From positions 1 to 29,451 of IMG/VR virus record IMGVR_UViG_3300007276_003333: 29,451 nucleotides of DNA; one strand, given 5' to 3'. The stretch is from a virus. Numbering within the stretch: the first letter of the stretch is position 1; every line of letters starts with the position of its first letter. A program made the position numbers and the translations under genes. Below, one piece after another: positions 626-29,451 of the stretch. The notes beneath the pieces were generated by a model, which made no database searches, had not been told where the DNA came from, and worked only from the letters and a program-made list of their open reading frames with translations.

Positions 626-1627
626 TTAGGCTTCTCTCACTTGGGCGTTTTGACTATGTGAATCAAATAAAACTTTCTTACCAGTAGTGAGATTTTCCTC
701 AGTTTTTTCAATTGAAGATACAATTTTTCCACATTGAGACTTACATAAACTAAAAGATCTATCATAACCTTTTAAATAATTTTGTAACTTAGTCCAATAT
801 TCATAACTTAGTATCTTCTCTAAAGGAACATACAGTCCGTTAAATAGATTTTCAAATTTTGGAGGATAATAAAAACGAGACTGTGATTCATCATAATAGT
901 GACCGCCCGTCCAACAACATCTAAATACTAAACCCTCTGGAGATACATACCACTTACCCCAATTATCCCATACACATTTTATGACTCGTTCAGCTTTGTC
1001 CATATTTTCTTTATTCTTTTTAGAATGTATAAACTTACCACTTTTAGGAGCAAATACATCTCTAGAAGTTTTAACAGTAGAAAATGTATGAAAATTATGA
1101 TCTAAAGCCATTTGCCTAGCTTCTTCTACCTGATGTTTATTGTGTTCAAATACTATATACTTCCAATGTACTTGTGCATTGTTTGTTTTAATTACAGAAC
1201 ACGCATTATTAAATACATCTTCAAATTTAGTATTAATTCTATACTTGGAGTGAGTATCTGATAGACCATCCATATCAAAATTAATTATATCACGTTTTGT
1301 TAGTATATTACCTACATCTGTCCAATAGTTATGATTATGTATACCACCATTAGTATGTATTAAAATTCTAGTATCATGTTGCTTAACATATGTTATAATC
1401 TCACGAAACTGTTTATTCATAACAGAATCACCAAAATTACCATTAATAACTAACCATTCTAAATTTTTTAACAGCTCAGGATAGAATAGCTGTTTAAAAC
1501 TATCTAATGATATAGTATATTTTTTATCATTTAAATTAATACGAAGAGGCTTAACTCTGTGACAAGCTGGGCATTTAGCATTACATCTAAAAGTTAGCTC
1601 AGTTGTAAGTTGTCTATACTTTCTCAT
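626..1627 (-). CDS. Radical SAM enzyme with C-terminal SPASM/twitch-like cysteines
   Basis: This 333-residue protein has the radical SAM cluster motif C15-x3-C19-x2-C22 (CNAKCPAC) right at its N-terminus, in the usual beta1-loop position (LTTELTFRC). It would bind a [4Fe-4S] cluster and cleave S-adenosylmethionine to a 5'-deoxyadenosyl radical. Where most family members have GGEP it has GNFGD (63-67), followed by further alternating strand and helix signals (ILIHTNGG, INFDMDG). The C-terminal part has C218, a C237-C238 pair after WYVSPEGLVFR, and C295/C299 (CKSQC). This resembles a SPASM or twitch auxiliary-cluster domain, typical of peptide- and protein-modifying members. The ATG overlaps the stop of the upstream fibre gene (TAATG), so translation is likely coupled. 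The substrate is unknown. The fibre, the repeat-bearing acidic protein or the Cys-rich 121-residue protein next door are candidates by position only. Confidence 0.88.
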   Translation of the reverse strand: MRKYRQLTTELTFRCNAKCPACHRVKPLRINLNDKKYTISLDSFKQLFYPELLKNLEWLVINGNFGDSVMNKQFREIITYVKQHDTRILIHTNGGIHNHNYWTDVGNILTKRDIINFDMDGLSDTHSKYRINTKFEDVFNNACSVIKTNNAQVHWKYIVFEHNKHQVEEARQMALDHNFHTFSTVKTSRDVFAPKSGKFIHSKKNKENMDKAERVIKCVWDNWGKWYVSPEGLVFRCCWTGGHYYDESQSRFYYPPKFENLFNGLYVPLEKILSYEYWTKLQNYLKGYDRSFSLCKSQCGKIVSSIEKTEENLTTGKKVLFDSHSQNAQVREA

Positions 1628-11177: not shown

Positions 11178-11877
11178 CGAACTGCGCTCCTACACTAATT
11201 TGGTCTCCACTACCATGAGGAATAGAACTTATATATCCACTTAAAAATTGACCAGCTACTCTATGTTGGCCATATATTAAAGCAATAGGAGTACCACTCT
11301 CAGAACTATTAGTTAGACTACCAAACATTCCATTATCTCTAGTAGTAGATTCTGTAGTTTTTTGTTGTTGTCTAGCCGCAGGAGACTTAGTAAACATTCT
11401 TCCTATAATAGACATACCTATATTTAAAGCCATGCTACCTAACATACTCATACCTTTACCTGCAGCAAGAACACTTTTCATAGCAGTACCCAGTTTAATT
11501 GCTGCTGCTTGACCTCCAGGAGTTATAGCTAATACTAAAATAGCAGCAATTAAAAACATTTTTCTACCTGATTTACCACCGCCGCCGCATATATTAGGAA
11601 CTAAATGTATAGTATCTCCGTCTTTAAAATGTTTAAGTTCTAGCATTTCTTCAGTAATCTCTTTTAGATTACTGTCAAGTAGAGAAAAAGATTCATCAGA
11701 TTCACCAGAACCAATCTGTGTCATATACTTAGAAAATTTAGGGTGCATAGCTTTAAGATAATACATAACATCCGCTGCAATATACGCATCAAAAGTATAT
11801 TCTTTTTCTTCAAAAAACTTATTATATGCTGAATGTATTTTAATATTAATTAACAAGATGTTCTTCCTTAAACTCAT
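11167..11877 (-). CDS. Tail assembly protein, lambda I-like (beta-grasp plus membrane segments)
   Basis: This is an I-like tail assembly protein. The N-terminal about 95 residues look like a ubiquitin-like beta-grasp domain: an opening strand ILLINIKIH, a helix AADVMYYLKAM, and a closing strand GDTIHLVPNI. The four-glycine run of GGGGKSGRK follows. Next are hydrophobic segments (MFLIAAILVLAIT and a Gly/Ala/Met-rich helix), then the typical I end, GTPIALIYGQHRVAGQFLSG. In lambda-type phages I lies between K and J and is needed for tip assembly; it is not thought to be abundant in virions. The JAMM gene just upstream is a candidate to cut after the glycines, as comparative-genomic work has proposed for this family pair. 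I report the nearby ATG at 11877. However, the only good ribosome site (AAGGAAG, 11863-11869) points to a TTG at 11856, which would begin the protein at the first strand. Confidence 0.82.
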   Translation of the reverse strand: MSLRKNILLINIKIHSAYNKFFEEKEYTFDAYIAADVMYYLKAMHPKFSKYMTQIGSGESDESFSLLDSNLKEITEEMLELKHFKDGDTIHLVPNICGGGGKSGRKMFLIAAILVLAITPGGQAAAIKLGTAMKSVLAAGKGMSMLGSMALNIGMSIIGRMFTKSPAARQQQKTTESTTRDNGMFGSLTNSSESGTPIALIYGQHRVAGQFLSGYISSIPHGSGDQISVGAQFDGD

Positions 11878-12217
11878 CAAATATGAGTGCGTCTACCTTA
11901 TGGTCTAGCCAATATATAAAAAATTTATTATTAAAACCTACTAAAAACTTATATTCTTGAAAAGCTGCACTTACTTTGTCTTCTCTACTAGGTATAGGAT
12001 TTTCTTCACCAGGATGGGAATGAAAAATACCCCATATATTACCATCATTTCTAACTAAATCTGCAGGATCTAATATAAAAGTTGTTTTAGGATAAGGAGA
12101 GGTATTAGTACAACGTATATAAGTAAAATCATTAGTTATAATTCCTACACATTCTCTAGGATAATCTTGCATAGCGTGTGCATTCATATCCTCAACTAGT
12201 TTTACAAATCTTTCCAT
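11846..12217 (-). CDS. JAMM/MPN metalloprotease, N-terminal half of a lambda K-like function
   Basis: This 123-residue protein is one JAMM/MPN domain, a zinc-dependent peptidase fold. The catalytic Glu is E22 (PRECVGII), and the zinc ligands are H66 and H68 (FHSHPG) with S77 and D80 (PSRED). The usual spacing is HxH-x7-S-x2-D. Here eight residues separate H68 from S77, one more than usual, in a proline-rich loop. In lambda, protein K carries such a domain fused to NlpC/P60. Here it is a separate gene overlapping the NlpC/P60 gene by 16 nt and ending inside the start of the I-like gene. A G-rich sequence (GGGGG) precedes the ATG. Its likely job is processing a tail-tip partner such as the I-like protein, or acting on peptidoglycan together with the adjacent peptidases. 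Confidence 0.88.
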   Translation of the reverse strand: MERFVKLVEDMNAHAMQDYPRECVGIITNDFTYIRCTNTSPYPKTTFILDPADLVRNDGNIWGIFHSHPGEENPIPSREDKVSAAFQEYKFLVGFNNKFFIYWLDHKVDALIFDEFKEEHLVN

Positions 12218-12627
12218 CTATATACCCCCGTAGTATATTGTTTATAGTAATTCCCATAAGGAGCAATCCAACTTTTATGATCTATCATAGTTTGTAGTAT
12301 TTTATTTCTATCTACGTATAAAGCACAATGATTAGTTATATTTGTAGAACCTAAACTCATAGTTATAATATCATAAAGCTGTGGTTCTTTAACTTTTCTC
12401 CACCCTGTTTTCTCGTTTGCGTTTATTTCAAAAAATCTTTCCTGTGTTTTACTATACCAATCTTCATCTACTATTTTACAAAAGTCAGAAGTAGTATAAG
12501 GAAAATCTATTTCTAATTCATTTAGATACACTAACTTGCAGAGATTAAAACAATCAATCCCTGTCTCAGCACTATTACCTAAATGTAAGTATGGAAAATC
12601 TTTGTATTTGTTATACCAAGCTGTCAT
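12202..12627 (-). CDS. NlpC/P60 family cysteine peptidase (tail-associated), copy 2
   Basis: This 141-residue protein has the NlpC/P60 order of catalytic motifs. The nucleophile is C26 in GIDCFNLCKLVY (the family DC-x-x-L block), the general base is H100 in TNHCALYVDRNK, and the third polar position falls at Q112 (ILQT), where many relatives have His or Asn. Family members cleave bonds in peptidoglycan stem peptides. In lambda K this domain is fused behind a JAMM domain and helps the tail tip breach or assemble at the wall. Here the JAMM domain is the next gene, overlapping by 16 nt. The gene overlaps the preceding NlpC-like gene by 17 nt and lacks a strong ribosome site, implying coupled translation. 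This copy keeps the canonical Asp-Cys pair, so it is the better candidate for the active K-type peptidase. Confidence 0.82.
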   Translation of the reverse strand: MTAWYNKYKDFPYLHLGNSAETGIDCFNLCKLVYLNELEIDFPYTTSDFCKIVDEDWYSKTQERFFEINANEKTGWRKVKEPQLYDIITMSLGSTNITNHCALYVDRNKILQTMIDHKSWIAPYGNYYKQYTTGVYRWKDL

Positions 12628-13000
12628 GTCTATAAATCGAATGTATACTCTCTACCCAATAGTCTGATAAAGTTTCTACACACGAAATTCCCCCTTCTTC
12701 GATATGTAACATTTTAGATGGCATTAAGTACATTCCAAAATGTATTACTAAATTTGTTTTTTCTGACTTAAATGCTATTACATCATAATCTTTGGCGTTT
12801 GTCAAACTTACTTTTTTAGCACATTGAGCTGCCCAATTATCTATACTAGTTGTAGTAAATTCTTTAATCCAATGCTTAGATAGGGGATAATCAGGCAAAG
12901 AAAATTGTAACCCTAGATTAATATAATAAAAGTTTCTGATTATAGTAATACAGTTTACTTCATCATAAGAATGACGTAAACCTATAAAGTCTCGTACCAT
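12611..13000 (-). CDS. NlpC/P60-like cysteine peptidase (tail-associated), copy 1
   Basis: This 129-residue protein is a second, divergent NlpC/P60-type domain. The proposed nucleophile C17 lies in SYDEVNCITIIRNFYY, with Asn in place of the usual Asp before the cysteine. The general base is H87 in VIHFGMYL, and H99 (KMLHIEEGG) fits the third position. The following GISCVETLSDYW resembles the region after the active site in phage K-type proteins. A good ribosome site (CGGAG, about 8 nt before the ATG at 13000) and a 19 nt overlap with the radical SAM gene place it firmly in the operon. It is only distantly similar to copy 2, so the pair is not a fresh duplication. It may act on the cell wall or, if the substitution weakens catalysis, serve structurally. 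Confidence 0.75.
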   Translation of the reverse strand: MVRDFIGLRHSYDEVNCITIIRNFYYINLGLQFSLPDYPLSKHWIKEFTTTSIDNWAAQCAKKVSLTNAKDYDVIAFKSEKTNLVIHFGMYLMPSKMLHIEEGGISCVETLSDYWVESIHSIYRHDSLV

Positions 13001-14193
13001 AAGGCAAACTCCGGAAAAGTTTCAGTAAAAGATTCATTACGTAATTTATCAACTCTTTCAGTTTCTTGTTTAAATTTTAGTAATTGATCACTTTCATCTA
13101 TACTAGTCATATAACTTAGCCAATTTTTTAGTTGTTCTAAATCATACACTGTTAATATTGTTCTATATTCTTTAATAAATTTTTTATATATAGCTAACAC
13201 TTGTTTTTTAGACTCTTTAGGTAAACAAGTAATTTTTTGATAAGAAGGATCGGTTTGCGTAGATCCATAAAAATCAAAACCATTACGTTTACACCATAGT
13301 ATCAAATCAGGCATAGAAGTTATACTATATATATTTATAACACAACTTATTGTCTGTATATGGTCTTTAAACATAATAGCATGTTTTTCAAATTTAGACC
13401 AGGATAATCCTTTTCTAGTATACTCTACGCGACTTCCGTACCCATCTACACTAGGCCACAAAGATACTTTTTTAAAGTTAAGCCACAGATCAGGTAGATT
13501 ATATTTTTTAAATTTAGAATAACTTAAATTAGTATTGTAACTTATATGTATATTTTTAGCATAACCAGATTCTATAAGTAGATTAAGCATTTTATAATGA
13601 CCTTCTTGTATAAAAGGTTCACCTCCTGCAAAATATACTTCTTCTAGATTAGGAATAAATTGTGGAACGTCTGCCCAAAAATCTTTATTATCAGTATAAT
13701 GATCCATAGTTTTAGACCATCCCATTTCTAAGGTATCAGTATACCAACTAGTAGAAGCATCAGGACCACACATTCTACATTTGAAATTACACAAGTTACC
13801 AAATCTAATGTCTAAATAAGTGGGATTATTATCTAAACTACCATCTGTATTAGTTCTAGATTGTAAATATGCATCTTTTGCAAATCGTCTATTTACTTGT
13901 AATCTATTACTATCACTACCTTGTTTTTCTTTTTCATAACAAGCTTTTATACATTCGATAGGTATTTTATTTTTTAAAAAATTTAAACGTGTACTTTTGT
14001 AATGACCACTATTCCATATACTACTTAATGACTGATCATAAGTTCCTACTATAGTACTACCTGCCTGAAACTGTGCATGACAACATAAATGATAATTACC
14101 ATTTAATCCTCCAAAAATATGCATCCAAGGAAGTATACAACCTTTTACTTTATTGTTTAGGAATTGTTCGTCCTGTTGCAGGGAAGCCTCCAA
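12982..14193 (-). CDS. Radical SAM enzyme with N-terminal twitch-like domain, inside the tail-tip operon
   Basis: This protein of up to 403 residues has the radical SAM motif C135-x3-C139-x2-C142 (CNFKCRMC) followed by a clean GGEP at 190-193 (YFAGGEPF), both in the expected positions of the partial TIM barrel. Ahead of the barrel is a cysteine-bearing module: C19 (GCILPWMHI), the pair C37-C38 (NYHLCC), then C81 and C85. It resembles the twitch/SPASM auxiliary-cluster fold placed N-terminally, as in radical SAM proteins known from marine myophages. The start is unclear. No ATG exists before residue 24. The frame opens with TTG at 14193, but the strong GGAGG (14187-14191) sits 5 nt before a CTG at 14181. 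The gene overlaps the L-like gene upstream and an NlpC/P60 gene downstream, so it is co-translated with tail-tip proteins. The substrate is unknown. Confidence 0.88.
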   Translation of the reverse strand: MEASLQQDEQFLNNKVKGCILPWMHIFGGLNGNYHLCCHAQFQAGSTIVGTYDQSLSSIWNSGHYKSTRLNFLKNKIPIECIKACYEKEKQGSDSNRLQVNRRFAKDAYLQSRTNTDGSLDNNPTYLDIRFGNLCNFKCRMCGPDASTSWYTDTLEMGWSKTMDHYTDNKDFWADVPQFIPNLEEVYFAGGEPFIQEGHYKMLNLLIESGYAKNIHISYNTNLSYSKFKKYNLPDLWLNFKKVSLWPSVDGYGSRVEYTRKGLSWSKFEKHAIMFKDHIQTISCVINIYSITSMPDLILWCKRNGFDFYGSTQTDPSYQKITCLPKESKKQVLAIYKKFIKEYRTILTVYDLEQLKNWLSYMTSIDESDQLLKFKQETERVDKLRNESFTETFPEFALWYETL

Positions 14194-18041: not shown

Positions 18042-21000
18042 TTATCCGCTTCTCAGAGCGTTTCTGATAGGTCCGTTGCTTTGTAGATCTCTCATTACGA
18101 CATCAATTACGATCTTATCAGCATCAAATTTAGGTTGTCCTTGCTGTTCAGCAGATTTAGGCTCGCCCTCATTAACAATGTTAAATTGTACATTACCCAT
18201 ACCAGCAGCGCCAGTAGCGTTCATCCTACTTAAATTACCTGCTCCTATAGATTTAGCAGCTGGTCTACGCATTACAAACTCACCAGGCTCTAACATGGCA
18301 GGTACACGATCACGAAGAGCATTTACCTGCCCTCCAGCAGCCATATTTCTAACACCAGTCATACCTACTAATCCACCAGTAGCAGCACCACCAAACATAC
18401 CCATGATGGTTGACATAAAGCCTCCACCGCCACCAGCAGCACCGCCGCCAAACATTCCCATAATGCTTGACATAAGGCCTCCGCCACCTCCGGCTCCGCC
18501 TCCACCAAATAAGCTACCAAGACCGGATGTTACACTACTAAATATATTACCAAGTGATCCACCTAAACCTTTAAATGTATCTAAAGCTGTAGTACCAAAG
18601 TTACCAATACCTTCTTTCATACTACCAAACACATTCATAGCTTTCTCTTTAAAGCCGTCAAAGAATTCCATACCTTTTTTCTCTACATCTTCTTTCATTT
18701 TTTCAGCAGGACTTGGTCCTCCTGCACTACCTGATGTAGTAAGTAAAGCACCGTCTATAACTTTAGCATTATCAGCACCTTTTTCTTCATTTAATCCTAA
18801 TCCTGGAATAAGATTGCCAACTAATCCTCTAAAGGCATCTTTAGCAGGTTCTATAAGAGTTTTTTGTAACACAGTTTTACGTATGTTTTCAAAAGTATCT
18901 GCAAATATATCACCCAAGCCATCTTTAATAGATTTACCTTCTGCTATATTATCAAATACCTTGTTAATGGCATTTCCGAGTCCATCATTGATATTTGTAA
19001 TTAACGCTTCAACCATATCTTTTAATTTTGCTTCAGCTGTTAGTTGATACTCTAAGCGTTCTTTAGTAATTTTAAATAGTTCCCTAGCTGCGGAAGCTTC
19101 TGCTCCTGCGGCTTGCATCTTAGCTACAAAATTTGCTTCAATCATTTCTTCTTCTAAACCTAGCATTTCTCCTTGTTTAATAAACTGCGCAGCAGCCTGT
19201 GCTGCTCTTGTATCTAGATGTAACAAGTCTTGTACACGATTCTTAGAGTTTAAATCATTAATTTTTCGTATAGACTCTAACTCCATTAATAAACCAGTTT
19301 GTTCTAACTTTCTAATTTTTTCTTGGGTATCAAAATTATTATTAGTAAGAGCATCTTGACCAGTTTTAATATCACCAGATCTTTGTTTATTAACACCAAT
19401 AGCAGACAGAGCATCTTCTATAGTTTGATTTAATTTTCTATCTGCGTCTGTTTGTATAGGCATGTCTGTTCCAGCTACTTCAGCTTGTTTAGCAAGAGTA
19501 TCCATATCTAATGCTCTTTTATCTTGTATAAATTTATACTGTTTTTCAAGCAAGTCTAGATCAAATAAACGCTGTTCATTTGCAAGTCTATTTTTCTCTA
19601 GTGCGTCAGCTCTTTGAGCTATAAGTATTGCCTCTTGTCTTTTAATTGTATCTAATGCTGTTTGCTTAGCCTCTAAACGCATTCTATCTTCTTCTGCTAG
19701 TATAGCTTGCTGTGCCAATAACATTTCTTTTTCTTCTGCAAATGCTTCAACACTATTCTTCTTCTCTTCAGCTAATAATTCTTTTTTACGAGTAAGCTCT
19801 TCTAAAGCGGCAGCTCTTTCTTCTTTAGCTAACCCAGCTTTAACACCTGCACTAGCTAGTGCAGCTTTTAAATTAACTTCTGCTAATTTAACTTGTAACA
19901 TTACAGTATCTCTCTGATTCAAGATTGATCTATCTAATTTATTCTGTAATGTAGCTGTTTCTTTTGTAGCGGCAGCACTAATACCCGCTTGTGCACCAGA
20001 AGCAGCAGCATTTGCCTTAGCCATATTTATATCGCTTTGCATTTTAGCTCTTTTTTGGTCCATTTTGAAATCTGCAAGATTAGCGGCACGATTAGAAGCA
20101 TTTATACTTTGTGTTTGTTTAAGACTATTTAATCTAGCTTTATCTACAGATAAAGATGCGGTATCGAGTCGTTGTTGTATTTGGCCTGTTTTTTGTATAA
20201 CTTTCTCATTGTTAAGTAACTTTTGAAGTTCTAGTTGTTTTTTAAGAGCAGTTATCTGTTTATCAAATTCAACAGTTTTTTCTTGTTGTTTTTGAATCTC
20301 TTGTGTTACAGCGTTTAATAGCTGACCTTGCTGAATACGTACTTGATCCTCAAGAGCCTTCTTTTGTTTTTCAAGATCTGCTAATTTTTCAGCAGCCCCT
20401 GCTTTAGTAAGATCTCGATTTCTTCTTACTAAGTCCCCTTCTAAATTACTAGCTTCTTTAATAAGACGTATTTGATCATCAATAGCAGTTAATTTTTCTT
20501 TATTAATAGTTATATTTTCTTGTAATCGAGTCTCAATACTTTGTTTTTCTAGTTCTAAAAGTTGGTTTGCTTTGTCTAATAATGTTTGTTGTCCAGTAGC
20601 ATTATTATTTATTTTATTTTTTTCAACATCAGCTATATCAGTAATTAATTTTTTCTGATCATCTAACAAACGATTTTGTTCTTCTAATCCACCTATTACT
20701 TGACTTTGATCTGCTAAGTCAGATAGACCTCCTAATTGAGCAGGAGTACCTGTTACCATAGCATGAGTTCTTCTTCTTTGTATCTCAAGTGCTGCTTGTT
20801 TTTCTACTAATTTAAGTTCTTTAATTACTGATTCATTTCTTGCTTTAAGAATATCAATTTGATCAAGTTTTTGTTGAGTATTAATACGAAGAGTTTCTAA
20901 AGCTGCGTTTTTCTCTAACTCAATTATTTCTTTTCGCAGAGTATTAGCTTCCATTTTAAATTCTAAATCTTTTATAGCATTTTGTAATTTAATTTTTTCA

Positions 21001-24000
21001 AAGTTTTGCTCTCTTATTAAAAATGCTTTTTCTGCCTCTAAACGCTCGACCTCTAAAGCCACACCTCTTAGTCTGATATTCTCAGATTCTTGAGCGGCAG
21101 CAAGTTCGTCAGAAAGAAGACGTTCAGTCTCTGTTACCTGATCATCAAGTAATTTCTTTTGGTTATTAATATTATCCGTAACTAATTGATTTTGTAAAAT
21201 AGCAGCAGCAGCTCCTGACAACTGATTGTCAGTAATTAATTTTTGTACTCTTATCTGTTCACTAGCCTCAAAAGAAGCTCTTTCAGTAGAAGCATTAATT
21301 TTAGCAGTTTCTCTTGTAGATTTTTCTATCTGGGCATCTACATTTGCTATTTGTTTTTTAATGTCTAGTTGTTCTATAAGTGCTTGTGATACTCTAAATT
21401 CATTATCTGATCTGAGTCTATCCAGTGTAAGTTGCTGTTCTGACTGTCTTAAAGACTCTTCTCTTGCAAATCTAATATTTGCTTGATCAGCTTCTCTCTC
21501 AGCAAGTTCTTGTTGTTTTTGTTGAATACCAGCCTGTGCTTCTAAAAGTTCTAGTTCTCTTTCTAGACCTTTAATTGTATCTTGAATAGCAAAGTTTTCT
21601 GCTTTTATAGAATTTAGTAATTGTGCATTGTGAATATTAGCTTGATCTATTAATGCCTCTTTTTGTGCTTCTAAATCTGCTAGCTTATTAGCATTTTGTT
21701 GACCTTCAAGAGCAGACTGTGCCGCCGCCTTTTGTTGTGCAAGTGCAAAATTTGCTTTTTCAGCATCTATCTTATCTTGTATAGCTGATAACTGTAACAC
21801 AGTTAAAGCACCTTGCCTTGCAATCTCAGAATCAATATTTGCAATTCTTGCGTCATTTAAGCTATTTTCAAGATTTAAAAGTTCTATTTTATCTTTAAAT
21901 TGTTGTTCTGTAGCTTGGGCCTGTATAACACCAATTTCTCCAACTAAAACTTCCTGTTGGGTAAGTGCTGTATTCTGCGCTTCTAGCTGAGTTGTTAGTT
22001 CAGTGCTAGCAAGCAGTCTATCTATATTTGTAGTATCCATCTCAGGATTCGCTTCTACAGCTAAGTCTTTTCTTGCAGCAATATCCGCTTTAGAAAATTT
22101 AATTTGATCAATTAAAAATTGATTTTTAGCTTTAAGTAAGGTATACTCATTTTGTCTGTTTTCTGAAGCAAGTCTATCCGCAGTTGCAGCTGCAGTTCTT
22201 TGTAGCTCTAATACTGCAATTTGTTTTTTATTTGTTTCAGTAGCTGCTGCAAGTTCTATTCGTGAATTATCAAGTTTTTTTACTTCTAACTCTAAAGCAC
22301 TCATTACAAAATCTTTTTCTTCTGTAAGTCTCTTAACTGTTAAATTAGAAATTTCTTGTTCTATAGATAATGCAGTATCAGCAGCGTCAGCTGCTACTTC
22401 AGCAGTTCTTTTACTTTCTTCTATTTTTGATTGTATTACTTGCCTCTCTTGCTCAAGACTTTTAAGTTTTAAACTACTTTCAATAGCGGCAGCAGCGGCA
22501 CCGCTAATACGATTATCTGCAATAAAGTTTTGGACTTTAATTTGGTCTTCAGTAGCAGATCTAGCTGCACCAGCTTTTGCTGCTATAGCAGCACCTTCTG
22601 CTTGAGCAGTTAAAAGTTGATTCTCTATTGCAAGAATTTCTTGTCTTACTTTCTTTTCATTAATGAGTTGATCTGTTAAGTTGTTAGCAATATCAAGTGT
22701 TAACTTTTCAATCTCTAAAGCATGCTCAGAAACTTTCAATGCTTCATCACGAGACATTTTTTCCATAGCTAAGACTGTTAAATTATTTTTTTCTATATCA
22801 TGTAGCTGCTGAGCGACTCTTGCTTGAACACCTAAAGCGTTTTTCTCATTCTCTAGTGCTGTTAATTTTCTAGTACTGAGATCGTCATTTAGTCTTTTTT
22901 CTTCATTAGCTTGGCGAAGAGCTGCTTCAGCTGTTTGATTAGCTACAAGAGCAACCATTTCTTCACTTTTTATTTTTTCATCAATAGCTGCAAGGCTGGT
23001 AGTAAGTGCCTGTGCTTCCTGTTGATCTGCAAGATTAAGAGTTTCGAGTTTATTACTTAATAGACTCTTCTCAGCTTTAAGCTCTTGTAGTGATCCAGCT
23101 TGTTTTGTTCTTAATAATTCTAATTCTTTTACACCTAGAGCTTCTATATTAGCTATTTTAGTGTCTGCTAAGCCTAATTCTGCTTCCAGTATTTTATCTA
23201 TACCTTCTGCATTAAGAGTTATTTGTGTTTCCTGTTGGTCAAGAATGTCACCTTGTTTAAGAAAAACAGCTCCCTGAGTGTCTGCTAATGTATTTAAATC
23301 TGCTATAAGTTTTGTAGATAAGTCAAGTGCTGGAATAGGAGCAGTTGAGGTATCTTTAATTATATCTACTACTTCAGCTAATTTGTTTATCGCAGTCGAA
23401 AACTCATATACAAATGCTTCATTAACTTCTGCAAGTTTCATCTGCCTATCTAAAATAGTTTGATCAATTACTCTTATAGCTCGTTGAGCTGCTATGTTTA
23501 TTCTATCTTTATCTAGTTTTATCTTATTAAGGTCTGCATCACGTTTAAGATTATCTTTTTGATCTTTTATAGCTTGTACAGACTGCCTAGTTTTAGCTGC
23601 TTGTATAGCTATTTCAAGTTGATTCTGTGCTTCAAGCTGTGAAATCTCTTTATCAATCTGATCTTGTCTATCTTTTATAATTTGTCTTTCTATATTTATT
23701 TTAGTATTTTCAAATTCTGCTTGCTCATTAAGTATATTTTTCTCTTCTTGTAAGGAAGATACAGCTAAGTCTTTTTCCATGCTAATTAGTGCTTTTCTTT
23801 GTTCTAATTGAGTATTAGCGCCTTGAGCAGCATCAGTTTCTAATAGTCCTCCTTGAATACCTACAGCAGATTCTTTTGCAGCTAAAACAGCAGCAGCAGC
23901 TCCCTGTCTTTGGGCTATAACTATTTCACGTTGTATATTAAGTCGTTTATTATTTTCGGCAGTCATAGCAGCTTCTTGCTCAAACTGTTGTTGTTGTATA

Positions 24001-27000
24001 TTATTAACAGCTTTTAAAAGTTCTAACCTTTTTTCAGTCACCTTTATCATCTGTTCACGACCAGCTGCAGCTTCTCTAACTTCTATCTCTTTAATAGTTT
24101 CGGCTACTATCAGACCTTTAATCATCATTTCATGATTTAAAATTTTAAGCTGATCTTTAAGTTTTTGTTCTTTTTTTGACTCTGCCTCAATCTGTGTTGT
24201 AAGATTTTTTGACATCTCTAAAGCAACACCTTTTGCTGCTTTTTGAGCTTTACGTCCTTGTGCAACTTTATCCTCATCAGCTTCATTCATTTTAAGCTGT
24301 TCAGCACGTATACCTTTGAGTCCGTCAAATTGTCTATTTAACTCTCTTACTTGATCTTTACGAGTTTTAAATCCTTGTTGTGCTATAGCTGCTTCCTGGC
24401 TTGCTAATGTTAATAGTTCTCGTTGATTTGTAAGTCTCGTTTCATCATCCGTAGCTAACGTACCATACTGACTAATATCACCACTGCTTATAGCATTATC
24501 AGCTGCTTTAATTTGTGACCCAAAAGCTTTGTCTATAGCTTTACCTAAAGCTTCACTTCTTTTGAGTTCATCATTATAGGCTTCTAATTGTTTTAATTCT
24601 TTTTCTAATCGTTGGAATAATGGAGTGTTCTCTTTACCTTGATCTTTTATTGCTTCTAACTGACTCTTTATCCCAAATATACCTTTAGACATAGCACTAG
24701 AAGTAGTAGCCCCATTTTCAAAGCCGTTAGTAAGATCTGATAATGTACTGTCAGCAATAACAAAAGCTTCTGCAAGGTCTTTTACTTCCTTGCTTTGTAT
24801 AGCGTAATCAAATTTACCACCTATTTTTACTAATTTTTCCCCAAATAGGTCAATATCTTTGCCATCAAATACTTTTGATATACTCTCTCCTATATCTTCT
24901 ATACTTTTACCAGTAGCTTGAGATAAACCTGCAGCTAAAGCAGGGTAAGATTCCATTCTTTTTTCCAAAAGATCTTGAAACTTTTTCTCTATAATTAAGT
25001 TTTCTCTAGCTGTTTGAAGTGCTTCAGACTCGGGATTTTCTTCATAAAGTCTATTAATTTCTTTTATGGTTTCTGTAATTTTATTTTGTATAAATAGCTG
25101 TTTCTCAGCATTAGTAGCTTCAGTTTTTTGTGTACCTCCAGCACTAGCCTTAATATTTCTTCTGAATCTCTCAATATTTAGTATTTTATCGCTAAGTTCT
25201 GCTTGCATCTCTAGTAATTTATTTTGTCTTTCTGTATCCAGTAGATTAAATTTAGTGAACTGACCATTTACAAGCATTAATTTATTTTGTTCAAATATTA
25301 ATTCATTTGCTCTTTCTATTTCGCCAGTAAGAGCAGCTGAACCACCCATTTTCGGGCCTTCAGCCGAGTTAATTGTAGTACCTGCAGCAGTATCTATAGC
25401 TTCTTGGCCTACGTCTATTTGACCTGTTATACCCTCTTTTTTTCTTGCCTGAAAATTCTTAAACTTGGCTGTACCAGCATTAAGCTTATCAAACTTTTCA
25501 AAACTCGCATCAACCATGTCATTTCTAGTTTTAAATATAACTGCTTCATCTTTTACCGCATCTCTAAGTGCAATTACTCTTGCCTTAATACCTTCAATAG
25601 CCTCAGTATCAGAGCCTATTGATTTAAACTGTTCTGCTATACTTGCTCCTGATGCTGAGGTAGTACTAATTAAAGCTGCAAAACCATCATCTAATCTTTT
25701 TGTAGCAGCAGTTATAGCTGAGAATCTATCTAGAACTGCTCCTAAAATATCTACATCAAAAATAGTTCCTACTAATTGTGCTACAGCTATAATACCAAAA
25801 ATAGCATTTACTGCTTTCCCTAAGATATTAAATGCAACACCTAAACCTCTTACGCCTGTTTGTAGTAGCTCAGTAGTTCTAGCTAAACCTCTAGAAGCTC
25901 TATTAGAACTATTTATTGCCTCAGTGTTAATCTCTATCAGTCTATTTAAGTATCTCCTACGAGGAGCACCCTCTGCTAAAAGATCTCTATTTCTTTCTAA
26001 AACTGCATTATTTGCTCTAAGAGCTCTGGTATTATTTAACGTACCATCACTTTGTGCAGCTACAGCCCTACTTAGTTCAGCTGTATTTTCTGCAGTTTCT
26101 CCTGCTATACGAGGATTAAAAGAGCCTTGTCTTTGTTGGCCATCATTTGTATTATAAGCGTGATCTCTAGCTGTTTGTGCACTGGTCTCTACACCAGATA
26201 AATCTAAAGTGCCCATATTAGCAGCAGCATCTGACATTCTAGTAGTAAATGCTGCTAGACTCGCTATACCATTTGTAGCAAACCCCCCAACAATAGCACC
26301 CGCTTTACTAAATACAAGAGTTAATACCCCTAAGAATAAGAGCATGGTATTACCAAAATCATTTTTGAAAAAGTTTACAACAGGCAGCAAGAACTCATTA
26401 ATTAGTTGCCCAAACTGAGTTCCTAATTCTACTACTTTTACTGATAATTGTTCTAAAGATTTTTGTGCGGATTGACCATTAACATCAATATTTGCAAATT
26501 TTCTAGTACCTTCGTCAATAACAGCATTAAGAAAGGCTTGTCGTCTTTCAAAATCTGTCATGGTACTAGCAGCAATGTTCATTTTACGTGCATAAGCATC
26601 AACAGCTGGTTCTATTCTTGTAAAAATACCCAATTCGTCCAGCAGTTCAGGTTCCATCTTAGCAGCACCGCGAACAACACGAGTCATAGCATCTGTTAAA
26701 TTTCTACCTAATGCACGAGAAGCACCAAGAGCTACTTTAGATAAGTCTTCAATTTGTTTTGTATTAAAACCTGAAGATAGTGCTAAGTTAGCTGAATTAG
26801 AAGCTTCTTCAAGAGTAAGTTGTCCTTGTGTAATATCTTTTATAGATTGAAGAATCTTAGGACCAGATTGACCTATTTCAGAAGCAAGTGCAGAAGTACC
26901 TCTAACAATATTTTCTGCTTGAGCTGCTTTAGATAATGCGTCAAAAGCTGCTTGTAAAGCAAATACAGTGGCTGCAGCACCGGCATATGCACCAACTAAA

Positions 27001-27161
27001 CCGCCCAATCCTTGAGATTGAGCGGCAAAAGAACGTCCAGCAGACGCAGAAGCTTGTCCAAGTCTAGTTTGACTTCTACCAAGAGTATCGGTAGCATCAG
27101 TTACACGGTCTGCTCCACTTTCAACAAAATCAGTTCTTATGGTATTTCTAATAGTAGCCAA
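18042..27161 (-). CDS. Tape measure protein
   Basis: This 3039-residue protein sits directly after the chaperone pair, as in lambda-like tail operons. Residues 1-250 resemble TP901/PhageMin-type tape measure starts (GVYAGAA-like Gly/Ala helix, then ELGQSGPK-like and NLTDAMTRVVRGAAK segments). Hydrophobic stretches occur at about 267-294 (TMLLFLGVLTLVF) and 427-467 (FGIIAVAQLVGTIF). Residues about 500-2750 are almost continuous coiled coil, rich in Ala, Glu, Lys, Gln and Leu. A Gly/Met-rich segment follows (about 2885-2940), and the C-terminal motif PAMLEPGEFVMRRPAAKSIG (about 2952-2973) is typical of tape measures. The start is TTG, since no Met occurs in the first hundred residues and AAGGGGAT precedes it. 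At about 0.15 nm per residue it predicts a tail near 450 nm. It sets tail length and is ejected with DNA. Confidence 0.95.
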   Translation of the reverse strand: MATIRNTIRTDFVESGADRVTDATDTLGRSQTRLGQASASAGRSFAAQSQGLGGLVGAYAGAAATVFALQAAFDALSKAAQAENIVRGTSALASEIGQSGPKILQSIKDITQGQLTLEEASNSANLALSSGFNTKQIEDLSKVALGASRALGRNLTDAMTRVVRGAAKMEPELLDELGIFTRIEPAVDAYARKMNIAASTMTDFERRQAFLNAVIDEGTRKFANIDVNGQSAQKSLEQLSVKVVELGTQFGQLINEFLLPVVNFFKNDFGNTMLLFLGVLTLVFSKAGAIVGGFATNGIASLAAFTTRMSDAAANMGTLDLSGVETSAQTARDHAYNTNDGQQRQGSFNPRIAGETAENTAELSRAVAAQSDGTLNNTRALRANNAVLERNRDLLAEGAPRRRYLNRLIEINTEAINSSNRASRGLARTTELLQTGVRGLGVAFNILGKAVNAIFGIIAVAQLVGTIFDVDILGAVLDRFSAITAATKRLDDGFAALISTTSASGASIAEQFKSIGSDTEAIEGIKARVIALRDAVKDEAVIFKTRNDMVDASFEKFDKLNAGTAKFKNFQARKKEGITGQIDVGQEAIDTAAGTTINSAEGPKMGGSAALTGEIERANELIFEQNKLMLVNGQFTKFNLLDTERQNKLLEMQAELSDKILNIERFRRNIKASAGGTQKTEATNAEKQLFIQNKITETIKEINRLYEENPESEALQTARENLIIEKKFQDLLEKRMESYPALAAGLSQATGKSIEDIGESISKVFDGKDIDLFGEKLVKIGGKFDYAIQSKEVKDLAEAFVIADSTLSDLTNGFENGATTSSAMSKGIFGIKSQLEAIKDQGKENTPLFQRLEKELKQLEAYNDELKRSEALGKAIDKAFGSQIKAADNAISSGDISQYGTLATDDETRLTNQRELLTLASQEAAIAQQGFKTRKDQVRELNRQFDGLKGIRAEQLKMNEADEDKVAQGRKAQKAAKGVALEMSKNLTTQIEAESKKEQKLKDQLKILNHEMMIKGLIVAETIKEIEVREAAAGREQMIKVTEKRLELLKAVNNIQQQQFEQEAAMTAENNKRLNIQREIVIAQRQGAAAAVLAAKESAVGIQGGLLETDAAQGANTQLEQRKALISMEKDLAVSSLQEEKNILNEQAEFENTKINIERQIIKDRQDQIDKEISQLEAQNQLEIAIQAAKTRQSVQAIKDQKDNLKRDADLNKIKLDKDRINIAAQRAIRVIDQTILDRQMKLAEVNEAFVYEFSTAINKLAEVVDIIKDTSTAPIPALDLSTKLIADLNTLADTQGAVFLKQGDILDQQETQITLNAEGIDKILEAELGLADTKIANIEALGVKELELLRTKQAGSLQELKAEKSLLSNKLETLNLADQQEAQALTTSLAAIDEKIKSEEMVALVANQTAEAALRQANEEKRLNDDLSTRKLTALENEKNALGVQARVAQQLHDIEKNNLTVLAMEKMSRDEALKVSEHALEIEKLTLDIANNLTDQLINEKKVRQEILAIENQLLTAQAEGAAIAAKAGAARSATEDQIKVQNFIADNRISGAAAAAIESSLKLKSLEQERQVIQSKIEESKRTAEVAADAADTALSIEQEISNLTVKRLTEEKDFVMSALELEVKKLDNSRIELAAATETNKKQIAVLELQRTAAATADRLASENRQNEYTLLKAKNQFLIDQIKFSKADIAARKDLAVEANPEMDTTNIDRLLASTELTTQLEAQNTALTQQEVLVGEIGVIQAQATEQQFKDKIELLNLENSLNDARIANIDSEIARQGALTVLQLSAIQDKIDAEKANFALAQQKAAAQSALEGQQNANKLADLEAQKEALIDQANIHNAQLLNSIKAENFAIQDTIKGLERELELLEAQAGIQQKQQELAEREADQANIRFAREESLRQSEQQLTLDRLRSDNEFRVSQALIEQLDIKKQIANVDAQIEKSTRETAKINASTERASFEASEQIRVQKLITDNQLSGAAAAILQNQLVTDNINNQKKLLDDQVTETERLLSDELAAAQESENIRLRGVALEVERLEAEKAFLIREQNFEKIKLQNAIKDLEFKMEANTLRKEIIELEKNAALETLRINTQQKLDQIDILKARNESVIKELKLVEKQAALEIQRRRTHAMVTGTPAQLGGLSDLADQSQVIGGLEEQNRLLDDQKKLITDIADVEKNKINNNATGQQTLLDKANQLLELEKQSIETRLQENITINKEKLTAIDDQIRLIKEASNLEGDLVRRNRDLTKAGAAEKLADLEKQKKALEDQVRIQQGQLLNAVTQEIQKQQEKTVEFDKQITALKKQLELQKLLNNEKVIQKTGQIQQRLDTASLSVDKARLNSLKQTQSINASNRAANLADFKMDQKRAKMQSDINMAKANAAASGAQAGISAAATKETATLQNKLDRSILNQRDTVMLQVKLAEVNLKAALASAGVKAGLAKEERAAALEELTRKKELLAEEKKNSVEAFAEEKEMLLAQQAILAEEDRMRLEAKQTALDTIKRQEAILIAQRADALEKNRLANEQRLFDLDLLEKQYKFIQDKRALDMDTLAKQAEVAGTDMPIQTDADRKLNQTIEDALSAIGVNKQRSGDIKTGQDALTNNNFDTQEKIRKLEQTGLLMELESIRKINDLNSKNRVQDLLHLDTRAAQAAAQFIKQGEMLGLEEEMIEANFVAKMQAAGAEASAARELFKITKERLEYQLTAEAKLKDMVEALITNINDGLGNAINKVFDNIAEGKSIKDGLGDIFADTFENIRKTVLQKTLIEPAKDAFRGLVGNLIPGLGLNEEKGADNAKVIDGALLTTSGSAGGPSPAEKMKEDVEKKGMEFFDGFKEKAMNVFGSMKEGIGNFGTTALDTFKGLGGSLGNIFSSVTSGLGSLFGGGGAGGGGGLMSSIMGMFGGGAAGGGGGFMSTIMGMFGGAATGGLVGMTGVRNMAAGGQVNALRDRVPAMLEPGEFVMRRPAAKSIGAGNLSRMNATGAAGMGNVQFNIVNEGEPKSAEQQGQPKFDADKIVIDVVMRDLQSNGPIRNALRSG
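18381..18491 (-). repeat. Tandem Gly/Met repeat in tape measure C-terminus
   Basis: Two adjacent units of 54 and 57 nt (18381-18434 and 18435-18491) encode near-identical peptides, GGGGGLMSSIMGMFGGGAA and GGGGGFMSTIMGMFGGAA. Each joins a glycine hinge to a short hydrophobic helix. The differences are scattered point changes and a codon indel. The hydrophobic units could contact membrane or the tail tip during ejection, which is inference. Confidence 0.85.
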
Positions 27162-27180
27162 CAGTTATCCCCTTATACTT

Positions 27181-27483
27181 TTACTTACGTGACTTTGCTT
27201 GCTGGGCATAATATTTTCCTAATAAAGATTCTGCTTCTTTTAATAGATTAAATACTGCACGTCTGTCATCAATTTCGTAGATATCCATGATAGTACCGAG
27301 ACCACTATAGTCTTTTCCTAGCCAAGTACCGTTCATGCCTTCCCATATGTCAGGAAGAGCATTAAGAACAGTTAGAGCTTGTTGACACTCTAGAGATAGA
27401 TTAGAACCGTCTTGAGGTAAATCTTCCTCTTTTGGCTCCCAACCCATCTGTTCGCACATCAATAGATATTGATCTGCTGTCAT
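27181..27483 (-). CDS. Tail assembly chaperone, T-type frame (expressed by -1 frameshift)
   Basis: This is the downstream frame of a G/T-type chaperone pair: 100 residues from the in-frame ATG (MTADQYLLMCEQMGWEPKEE), with helical content and a Lys/Arg tail (QQAKSRK). Its position between the short chaperone and the tape measure is that of lambda T. The frame stays open upstream of the ATG to 27531, and the added codons read LTDYLQSSFGGGG. Ribosomes that slip back one base at 27522-27528 would therefore make a 256-residue fusion (143 plus 113 residues). The ATG does have GGAGG nearby, but only 1 nt away and inside the proposed hairpin, so independent initiation looks poor. The fusion is expected to bind the tape measure and recruit tail tube subunits, then be absent from the virion. 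Confidence 0.85.
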   Translation of the reverse strand: MTADQYLLMCEQMGWEPKEEDLPQDGSNLSLECQQALTVLNALPDIWEGMNGTWLGKDYSGLGTIMDIYEIDDRRAVFNLLKEAESLLGKYYAQQAKSRK

Positions 27484-27489
27484 ACCTCC

Positions 27490-27528
27490 ACCCCCAAAAG
27501 AACTTTGGAGGTAGTCAGTTAGTTTTTT
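27490..27528 (-). promoter_or_regulatory. Programmed -1 ribosomal frameshift site and stimulatory hairpin
   Basis: In the minus-strand reading of the short chaperone, the last codons are aca aaa aac taa, containing the slippery heptamer A AAA AAC (27528-27522) directly before the stop (27521-27519). After a 9 nt spacer, ACCTCCAAAG (27512-27503) pairs with TTTTGGGGGT (27499-27490) around a TTC loop, giving about ten pairs with two G-T wobbles. The -1 frame has a TGA at 27534-27532 and then no stop until 27181. The slip must therefore occur in the 13 nt that hold the heptamer. The same short sequence also encloses the ribosome site of the downstream ATG. This is the architecture conserved in lambda-like tail chaperone genes. 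Confidence 0.85.
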
Positions 27529-27950
27529 GTGTCAGTTTCGCCTTTTTTAACGGAAAACTGCTCAAAGTCATTCATAGTATCTGTTACAAATTGATCAAAA
27601 ATTGTTGAATTTTTCAAAAGTTCAATTGCATCTTCCATAGAATACTCTACTTCTTCACTGGCGTCCATTGCTGAAATGTCAACAGGTAAAAGAACCGGTA
27701 AATGTTTTACCTTGAGTCCTTTCCATCCTGCAACAGCTTTTTCTGCATATGCTTCAAGAAATTTTTCATTGTCAACTTCTTCTTCACGTTGACGAGTACG
27801 TTTGTTAAACTTATAGGTAAGTGCTTTGTTACGTACTTTCATAAGATCTTCGCGTGTAAGATAACGAAGATGAATTTCAAAACCTTCAATATCTGGAAAC
27901 TCAACCCAGGTTGCGGTTTCTTTGGCGATTAAACCTTTAATTTTACTCAT
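27519..27950 (-). CDS. Tail assembly chaperone, G-type
   Basis: This 143-residue protein lies between the tail tube and the tape measure, the lambda G position. It reads MSKIKGLIAKETATWVEFPD, then IHLRYLTREDLMKVRNKALTYKF, a Lys/Arg/Glu-rich patch and a C-terminal helical acidic segment (EEVEYSMEDAIELLKNSTIF and DFEQFSVKKG). The pattern of an N-terminal beta region (substrate-specification style wording such as EFPDIEGFEIHLRYL) and a C-terminal helical region is typical of siphophage chaperones. The frame is open to a GTG at 27983. I choose the ATG at 27950 because GAGGGG (27959-27964) sits 8 nt upstream, whereas the GTG has no ribosome site and lies in the repeat region. Its final codons contain the frameshift site. 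It should coat the tape measure during tail assembly. Confidence 0.85.
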   Translation of the reverse strand: MSKIKGLIAKETATWVEFPDIEGFEIHLRYLTREDLMKVRNKALTYKFNKRTRQREEEVDNEKFLEAYAEKAVAGWKGLKVKHLPVLLPVDISAMDASEEVEYSMEDAIELLKNSTIFDQFVTDTMNDFEQFSVKKGETDTKN

Positions 27951-27977
27951 AATTTTTTCCCCTCTAGGATAATAAAC

Positions 27978-28074
27978 GAACACCCACTACGTATCTGCTT
28001 GTCTTTGGTGAGGGGGAACCTAGACTCGCAAGTAATGGGTGTTCTTCTGGTTAATAATGTGGTGTTCCCCCTCA
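27978..28074 (-). promoter_or_regulatory. Interleaved inverted repeats (possible pseudoknot or attenuator)
   Basis: This lies within the 144 nt gap (27951-28094) between the tail tube stop and the chaperone start. In minus-strand order: TGAGGGGGAAC (28074-28064), GAACACCCATTAC (28044-28032), GTTCCCCCTCA (28019-28009) and GTAGTGGGTGTTC (27990-27978). The first and third arms are perfect 11 bp complements. The second and fourth pair over 13 bp with one G-T wobble. The pairs cross, as in an H-type pseudoknot. The third arm also holds CCCCTC, complementary to the chaperone ribosome site GAGGGG (27959-27964), so the arm has two competing partners. No strong U-tract follows, so a classical terminator is unlikely. 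The rest of the gap is AT-rich with no other feature. Confidence 0.65.
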
Positions 28075-28094
28075 GAAACACATTAATTTTTTAG

Positions 28095-29405
28095 TTAGCT
28101 TTTGATAGCTACAATTTCAACTTCTCCGCCATCGCCTTTATTAGCATCAGTTTCCTGCGCTAAGAAATCGACACTCATAGAGATAACATCTTCAGTTTGA
28201 ATCGCTGGGAAACTAAACTGTGCTGCATTCATTTGGAAAGCAACATATGGAGCAGTAGTTCCGCCAATAATAACATTAGCATTAGATGTTTGAGCAGAGT
28301 TAGTGCGACTATCTTCACTAATATTACGTAAGAATCCTGCAGACTCTAAATCTCCACTACGTAGATACATAGTAGTAGAACCACTTACAGATCTAGTTCC
28401 TGAGAACTGACCAATTGGCTCATTAAGTGCAGAGATTTGCTCTGGAGTGAGATATGTAATATTGTTATTATACTCGAAGTTCATAGAAGTTACTGGGAAA
28501 GTAAACTTTTCATCAGAAGCTGATGCAGTTGCTTTATGGTGGAACTCAATAGCACTCAAACGATTCTTAATAAATGAGTTAGTAGTTACTGTACCAGCAA
28601 CATTCATAGTATTAAATGGGTGATAAGAAGATGCTGCGCTAAGTGCATGAGCATTAGAGTTACCCACAACAGCTGTACCACCAGCATTTTTAATACCACC
28701 AAAGGTTGCAACAGCAATATCTCTAGGAGCACCTGTAAGTTCTTTCATAACAGTACCGAATCCGCTCCAAGTAACAGTAGCAATATCTTCGATACCTGCA
28801 TCAACAGATGCTGAATTAACAGTAGCTTTATCTACCTGATAAATAACATTATCAAGTTTAAAGTACATAAAGTATTCTGGGGCAACAGCCCAATTAGATG
28901 TTGAAGCGTGAATACGAGTTCCAGCTGCGATAGTATTAGTTTTTAGAGTACCACCAGTTTGCCAAATAGATTGCTCTGCTACACGAGTAGCTGCTACTTG
29001 CGATTTTGCAGCAGCAAGAGTACTTGAAGTAAGAGCTTGCCACATATACCAATCTGCAAGAGGTTTTGTATTACCTGATTCATTAGTTTTTGCAGTAGTG
29101 CCGTTAGCAGCACCAGTAGTTTCTACGCCTGTTGGACGCATATATACTTGAATATTCCAATCAACAGGGTTGATTGCAGTATTAAATCTTTGTTGTGAAC
29201 GATCAGGGCTAAGACCTGATTCGAGGGAAGTGATGTCTTGAGTAGCTGATGTAGAAGTAGCAGCAAAACCAGCCAATACCTCAAGTTTCCAGGTGTTAGC
29301 TGGAGTCATCGCAACAGCAACTGAGGCAGAACCACTAGTGGTACCAAGTATGTCAACTGTTGAAAAGAACACTTCAGAATTTCTCTGTAAATTGAGAGAT
29401 GCCAT
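28095..29405 (-). CDS. Major tail tube protein (probable)
   Basis: This 436-residue protein is rich in Ala, Ser, Thr and Asn, with predicted beta strands throughout and no membrane segment or signal peptide. It begins MASLNLQRNSEVFFSTVDIL and ends with FSFPAIQTEDVISMSVDFLA followed by an acidic tail. The residues SVDFLAQET near the C-terminus are of the kind seen at the last strand of tube proteins. The assignment rests mainly on position: it is the last gene before the frameshifted chaperone pair and the tape measure, where siphophages place the tube gene. A strong ribosome site (AAGGAG, about 7 nt before the ATG) fits a highly expressed structural protein. It is longer than lambda V (about 250), so it may carry an extra Ig-like or surface domain. 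It would polymerise around the tape measure. Confidence 0.75.
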   Translation of the reverse strand: MASLNLQRNSEVFFSTVDILGTTSGSASVAVAMTPANTWKLEVLAGFAATSTSATQDITSLESGLSPDRSQQRFNTAINPVDWNIQVYMRPTGVETTGAANGTTAKTNESGNTKPLADWYMWQALTSSTLAAAKSQVAATRVAEQSIWQTGGTLKTNTIAAGTRIHASTSNWAVAPEYFMYFKLDNVIYQVDKATVNSASVDAGIEDIATVTWSGFGTVMKELTGAPRDIAVATFGGIKNAGGTAVVGNSNAHALSAASSYHPFNTMNVAGTVTTNSFIKNRLSAIEFHHKATASASDEKFTFPVTSMNFEYNNNITYLTPEQISALNEPIGQFSGTRSVSGSTTMYLRSGDLESAGFLRNISEDSRTNSAQTSNANVIIGGTTAPYVAFQMNAAQFSFPAIQTEDVISMSVDFLAQETDANKGDGGEVEIVAIKS

Positions 29406-29426
29406 GTTATTTCTCCTTAATTTTCT

Positions 29427-29438
29427 AGCCTATAGGCT
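29427..29438. repeat. 12 bp perfect palindrome upstream of tail tube gene
   Basis: AGCCTATAGGCT is a perfect 12 bp palindrome about 22 nt upstream of the tail tube start codon and 10 nt upstream of its ribosome site. As RNA it would be only a 4 bp stem with a TATA loop, and no U-tract follows on either strand. It might be a protein-binding site or a weak processing hairpin, or it may be chance. Nothing else is visible between it and the window edge. Confidence 0.35.
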
Positions 29439-29451
29439 GTGTTTAGATTAA

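Follow-up and report, generated by a model that had tools for sequence, protein, structure and literature searches.

Long-tailed phages presumably need far more tube protein than tail assembly chaperone or tape-measure protein, and how such an expression step is set within one operon is rarely known. The question is raised by a viral DNA of 29,451 nucleotides, the IMG/VR record IMGVR_UViG_3300007276_003333 (positions 1 to 29,451, hereafter the window), in which an element at 27,978 to 28,074 separates a major tail (tube) protein gene from a tail assembly chaperone gene. The first-pass annotation of this DNA noted two long inverted repeats here and proposed that they let tube protein be made in large excess over chaperone, by attenuation, RNA processing or ribosome-site masking. 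The tube protein shows 29% identity to the My1 major tail protein, and its nearest isolate relatives are found in T5-like phages at less than 30% identity. Since all of the surrounding genes are on the minus strand, the RNA is the reverse complement of the window letters. In this RNA the tube stop codon is followed after a few bases by hairpin A, and then by a linker, hairpin B, a U-rich tract, the GAGGGG ribosome-binding site and the chaperone ATG (Table 1).

Table 1. Features of the tube-chaperone junction, listed in RNA order
Feature	Position	Strand	Description
Major tail (tube) protein gene	28095..29405	(-)	436 aa, upstream cistron; PHROG 3575 major tail protein, E=5e-45
Tube stop codon	28095-28097	(-)	
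Hairpin A	28062..28081	(-)	GUGUUUC / GGAACAC stem, 28075-28081 with 28062-28068; loop holds GAGGG
Kissing strand 1	28064..28074	(-)	UGAGGGGGAAC; perfect complement of 28009-28019; GAGGGG invariant in 99/99
Hairpin B	27978..28044	(-)	67 nt; base stem P2 = 28032-28044 with 27978-27990, 13 bp
Upper hairpin B	27995..28031	(-)	P3 UUGC/GCAG (28028-28031 with 27995-27998)
2x2 purine internal loop of hairpin B	28026-28027, 27999-28000	(-)	
P4 of hairpin B	28022-28025 with 28001-28004	(-)	GUCU/AGAC
GG/CC pairs of hairpin B	28019-28020 with 28007-28008	(-)	
Kissing strand 2	28009..28019	(-)	GUUCCCCCUCA; 28009-28018 = hairpin B apical loop; CCCCUC invariant in 99/99
GAUAC	27991..27995	(-)	3'-side bulge between P2 and P3, plus neighbour
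U-rich tract	27969..27977	(-)	GUUUAUUAU; directly 3' of hairpin B
Chaperone ribosome-binding site	27959..27964	(-)	GAGGGG; complementary to loop B, identical to hairpin A loop
Chaperone start codon	27950	(-)	ATG
Tail assembly chaperone gene (G-like)	27519..27950	(-)	143 aa, downstream cistron; PHROG 313 tail assembly chaperone, E=9e-15

Gene context of the junction

Among the consensus promoter matches in a scan of 27000-29451, none fell in the tube-chaperone gap or near the element. RNA structure was not found to extend into the chaperone gene, as synonymous variation was barely reduced at its start (0.28 in codons 1-10 vs 0.30-0.51 in the other full blocks).

Several neighbouring features were also observed. 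The chaperone ORF ends in ...A AAA AAC TAA, a classic -1 slippery heptamer (27519-27528, minus strand), an inverted repeat ACCUCCAAAG...UUUGGGGGUGGAGGU lies past its stop codon (27484-27521, minus strand), and its -1 frame enters the next ORF (27181-27483). The AAAAAAC motif occurs at the 3' end of the chaperone gene in 91/93 distinct relatives, and the second ORF there is often without a start codon; for these two reasons the second ORF is probably made as a G/GT-type frameshift fusion with the chaperone. A very long tape-measure-like ORF of 3039 aa follows (18042-27161, minus strand), having a UUG start with AAGGGG before it. The tail module further contains a radical SAM protein with a SPASM domain (12982-14193, minus strand; Pfam PF04055, PF13186), and the ORF at 626-1627 (minus strand), which has no Pfam match, resembles another protein of this kind in carrying a CxxxCxxC-like motif close to its start. 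In the tail tip region (12202-13000, minus strand), two neighbouring overlapping NlpC/P60-family ORFs were found, followed by a JAB-domain ORF (11846-12217).

Fold of the junction RNA and its conservation

The two inverted repeats exist exactly where the first-pass annotation had placed them, and they interleave. The 13-nt pair (27978-27990 with 28032-28044) has 12 Watson-Crick pairs and one wobble, and the 11-nt pair (28009-28019 with 28064-28074) is perfect. Folded alone, the minus strand gave -34 kcal/mol with the long hairpin B dominant, and this value beat all 200 dinucleotide shuffles.

Relatives were collected by chaperone and tube searches in IMG/VR, which yielded more than 100 junction-spanning loci, mostly metagenome fragments, and from these 99 distinct upstream regions were extracted. 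They were sorted into seven groups, I-VII, defined by the P2 stem sequence and not by a tree; the window belongs to group I. All 99 regions could be parsed into the layout of hairpin A, hairpin B and loop-loop helix, with GAGGGG...CCCCUC in the right order around P2. The loop of hairpin A in relatives is UGAGGGG, on a stem of up to 13 bp that has been re-invented in other groups (CUAG/CUAG, CUACGC/GCGUAG, AUUCAUG/CAUGAAU). The length of hairpin B stays within 64-75 nt across all groups and is exactly 67 nt in two thirds of the 99 sequences; P2 measures 11-16 bp in relatives, and lower and upper stem lengths trade off within the hairpin. Constrained folds gave an order common to the groups, consisting of P2, a 3' bulge (usually GAUA), a stem of 3-5 bp, a small and mostly purine internal loop, an upper stem and a loop of 10-12 nt. 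A few members depart from this order, and L365, a sequence of group III, gave another fold. Besides the kissing-loop core, GAU and the next A are the sole near-invariant letters across the groups. The bulge may kink hairpin B and thereby let hairpin A reach the loop.

The loops UGAGGGG and CCCCUCA are complementary in 96/99 sequences. The invariant GAGGGG/CCCCUC core by itself says nothing on pairing, and the support for pairing is found in the covarying edges of the crossing helix. Its first pair is UA in 96 of the 99 sequences, CG in 2 and CA in 1; the eighth is GC in 61, GU in 17 and AU in 16, and the ninth is AU in 54, UA in 11 and GC in 6. In two sequences, L399 and L403, both loops are altered together, to CGAGGGGG and CCCCCUCG.

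Covariation of the whole structure was measured on an alignment of 40 sequences, in which standard pairs filled 97.8% of the pair cells. Two-sided changes, counted per cell and ignoring kinship, numbered 105; shuffles gave 28 (0/500), and sliding the partner by 1-3 columns gave 6-26. They were seen in 12 of the 14 alignment pairs of P2, where 98.5% of the cells were paired, and in 4/4 counted pairs of the hairpin A stem. Since the wobble pairs of P2 (55 cells) would turn into A-C mismatches in an RNA read from the opposite strand, the functional RNA is that of the minus strand.

Covariation of the arms in homologous phages had been suggested as a way to check the repeats, and the arms are indeed kept, with massive compensatory change in P2 and hairpin A and with covariation at the edges of the crossing helix. 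These compensatory changes, together with the covarying loop-loop edges, indicate that the element is an intramolecular kissing-loop pseudoknot of near-fixed dimensions, in which hairpins A and B are locked by a loop-loop helix. The first-pass annotation had left the choice between an H-type pseudoknot and two exclusive hairpins. The H-type or kissing topology stands, as both stems coexist and both P2 and the crossing helix covary, and the exclusive hairpins are not needed.

Distribution and novelty

A pattern scan covering the core of groups I and II gave at least 205 matches. Among the matches listed, 197/205 had the tube gene upstream and the chaperone gene downstream, and the other 8 were at contig ends. 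None of 84,980 genomes of bacteria and archaea contained this core pattern. A covariance model made from the 40 sequences found one significant copy in the window and one in each of four other genome records; it misses two diverged group III records in which the element can be recognised by direct reading. The model found nothing significant in eight T5-like isolate records; in these records a minor tail gene lies between tube and chaperone, and the gaps are of a few bases or the genes overlap. Chaperone homologues are present in T5-like isolate phages. A DNA-level search of isolate phage records with a 651-bp stretch returned no match. The window contains one other TGAGGGG, which belongs to the complement strand of this element. 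Comparative evidence shows that the element occurs, among the matches listed, as one copy per genome and always at the tube-chaperone junction. A trans-acting or multi-copy role was rejected on the basis of the one significant copy per genome. A genome-sized record of 112,794 bp (L162, IMGVR_UViG_3300003177_000010) has one copy of the element and a diverged chaperone (54% identity), and it offers a good reference for the lineage.

Searches against Rfam 15 gave no gathering match in the window. At a loose threshold (E <= 10), the region 27880-28160 gave two sub-threshold matches, the best at E=0.69, and ten loci of other groups gave none at E<=1. The earlier remark that no named RNA family has this layout is in line with these searches. 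No description of the element was found in a literature search, which lay mostly outside subscription papers, so that this absence is no proof of novelty. The element is a new RNA family, absent from Rfam 15.

Expression across the junction and comparison with known systems

Directly after P2, positions +2 to +7 are 74% U overall (68-87% each) and 0% G in the 99 sequences, and the signal ends at +8; the background of U is 30% in the linker between hairpins A and B and 32% upstream of other genes. At least four U were found in the six tract positions in 83/99 sequences. Groups V and VII have a strong tract; in group I some members have a weak one or none. A terminator score, calculated with a published formula and used as supportive only, was positive for all 16 members of groups IV, V and VII and for roughly half of those in group I. 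A U-tract after hairpin B is the layout of an intrinsic terminator, and it points to partial termination or to 3'-end formation of the tube mRNA.

The element probably sets the amount of chaperone relative to tube protein. As a structured RNA that acts in cis and keeps the tube and chaperone cistrons apart, it would lower the expression of all genes past the tube gene (chaperones, 3039-aa tape measure and tip) relative to the tube. An expression drop ahead of the tape-measure-like ORF would benefit the phage. The likeliest step, which we rank first while holding it only tentatively and at somewhat less than an even chance, is RNA 3'-end formation at the U-tract, with hairpin B acting as an intrinsic terminator that is weak and leaky. 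Hairpin B would be held in a fixed shape by the kissing fold, which would also cap the tube mRNA against 3' decay, and a minority of transcripts would read through to the downstream genes. A second, translational layer is possible, involving loop B and the GAGGGG ribosome site in those groups that keep the complementarity. The attenuation proposed by the first-pass annotation agrees with the U-tract, which occupies a constant position behind hairpin B in each of the seven groups but is absent in a few group I members. Against leaky termination, P2 and the U-tract would suffice for it, which leaves the invariant kissing loops, the GAUA bulge and the constant length of hairpin B unexplained. Moreover, terminator hairpins are usually shorter than 67 nt, many members have a negative terminator score, and in five group I sequences (L310, L317, L320, L321 and L324) the complete fold is followed by a tract with 0-2 U. 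These five sequences are natural test cases for the terminator idea.

A translational switch has also to be considered, although we regard it as rather unlikely. Loop B would pair either with the hairpin A loop, leaving the chaperone site free, or with the chaperone ribosome site, turning chaperone synthesis off; a ribosome finishing the tube gene would melt hairpin A, free loop B and lower chaperone initiation. The ribosome site is complementary to CCCCUC in the hairpin B loop, and it is mimicked by the upstream arm, both as annotated at first. The site is also abnormal: 59% of chaperone leaders contain GAGGGG and 99% contain GAGG, compared with 0.4% and 11%, respectively, of the leaders of other genes on these contigs, the control leaders being taken from mechanically found ORFs of which some starts are wrong. 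At least 6 contiguous complementary bases occur in most sequences of groups I, III, IV, VI and VII, and 8-10 in most of group II, and the short distance of hairpin A from the tube stop codon would suit such a switch. The masking part of the original proposal nevertheless holds incompletely, since the 13 sequences of group V have an intact fold but GAGAGG as their site, with only 4 complementary bases in a row. In every group the loop-loop pairing is clearly stronger than the loop-site pairing (by ~8 kcal/mol in group I), and the loop change to CCCCCUCG in L399 and L403 is not followed by the ribosome site. The linkers between P2 and the site go down to 7 nt, and the loop, ~26 stacked layers off, would be hard to reach with P2 formed; GAGG is, furthermore, complementary to 16S rRNA as well. 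Recognition by a protein is a further possibility, to be viewed with some doubt, in which the kissing fold would bind a protein encoded by phage or host (with the tube or chaperone protein regulating its own synthesis), or would serve as a nuclease site and as a stabiliser that separates two mRNAs. The only features present in all seven groups are of the tertiary type, namely the invariant core of the loop-loop helix, a bulge on the 3' side that is usually GAUA, a small internal loop and a hairpin length that hardly varies, and such conservation is expected of a recognised three-dimensional shape and not of a simple hairpin. However, nothing in the sequence names a protein, and both the binder and the cleavage site are hypothetical.

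Two other readings have far less in their favour. A self-cleaving ribozyme cutting the tube-chaperone mRNA might be imagined from the pseudoknotted fold with its few invariant unpaired bases, but it is very improbable, as no Rfam ribozyme family matched in any group tested and no conserved junction lies outside the fold. The HDV-like helix order (nested double pseudoknot P1-P2-P3-P1'-P4-P2') was not found, the upper hairpin B stems enclosing the crossing strand. That the repeats arose by chance or are neutral, without function, deserves almost no weight: an interleaved stem pair of at least 11 bp does appear in 1/60 dinucleotide-shuffled whole windows, but in seven groups the element has survived an almost complete turnover of its letters, with compensatory changes, and the covariation refutes this reading.

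The U-tract and the site complementarity are not universal and the fold is universal, so the fold must have a job of its own, which may be holding the shape of hairpin B, protecting the end of the tube mRNA or binding a protein. A broader proposal, in our opinion unlikely, is that this RNA family belongs to a broad T5-like lineage in which the kissing complex would sense tube translation or transcription and set the chaperone dosage via leaky termination and ribosome-site capture, keeping the tube:chaperone ratio. A single element at exactly the tube-chaperone step, with its shape kept while the letters change, offers a clear target for work on structure and function, and the 99 natural variants, some without the U-tract and some without ribosome-site complementarity, separate the two proposed mechanisms.

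Structured RNAs are known from other phage and bacterial operons. The T4 gene 32 mRNA has a small autoregulatory pseudoknot in its 5' leader that is bound by the product of the gene itself. The present element is likewise a phage mRNA pseudoknot upstream of a coding region, but its binder is only hypothetical. Mu-gpT-DE is a candidate phage structured RNA downstream of a Mu-like phage head gene, and it shares with our element the position of a conserved phage RNA downstream of a major structural gene; it differs in phages, gene and fold, and no Rfam match of any kind was obtained for our element. The EAR (epsC) element is a structured, pseudoknotted RNA of processive antitermination that lies in the middle of an operon. 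The epsC pseudoknot is mentioned in PMC2864571. Like EAR, the junction RNA is pseudoknotted and located inside an operon and not at its 5' end, but no Rfam match to EAR was obtained at the element (E <= 10) or at ten other loci (E <= 1).

In repZ of the IncI-alpha plasmid ColIb-P9, a pseudoknot just upstream of the ribosome site is tied to translation (PMC8383071). The pseudoknot ahead of a ribosome site is common to both systems, and no membership is claimed; repZ is under antisense RNA control with a different sequence and layout, whereas in the junction RNA the crossing strands have hairpin B between them, and the loop finds its complement in the ribosome site itself. Expression of repZ also needs a leader peptide. 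In T7, most transcripts end at a terminator that follows the major capsid gene, and the expression of genes 11 and 12, which lie downstream, depends entirely on read-through (PMC5592923). Unlike the junction RNA, this T-phi, located after gene 10, is a plain terminator for a phage-type RNA polymerase; the element folds over 100 nt into a kissing-loop structure whose loops are invariant, and its role in termination is a prediction from the sequence. We claim no membership, but T-phi offers a precedent for leaky termination behind the gene of a major structural protein: the element, too, lies directly after a structural gene, where leaky termination would set the ratio of the downstream products.
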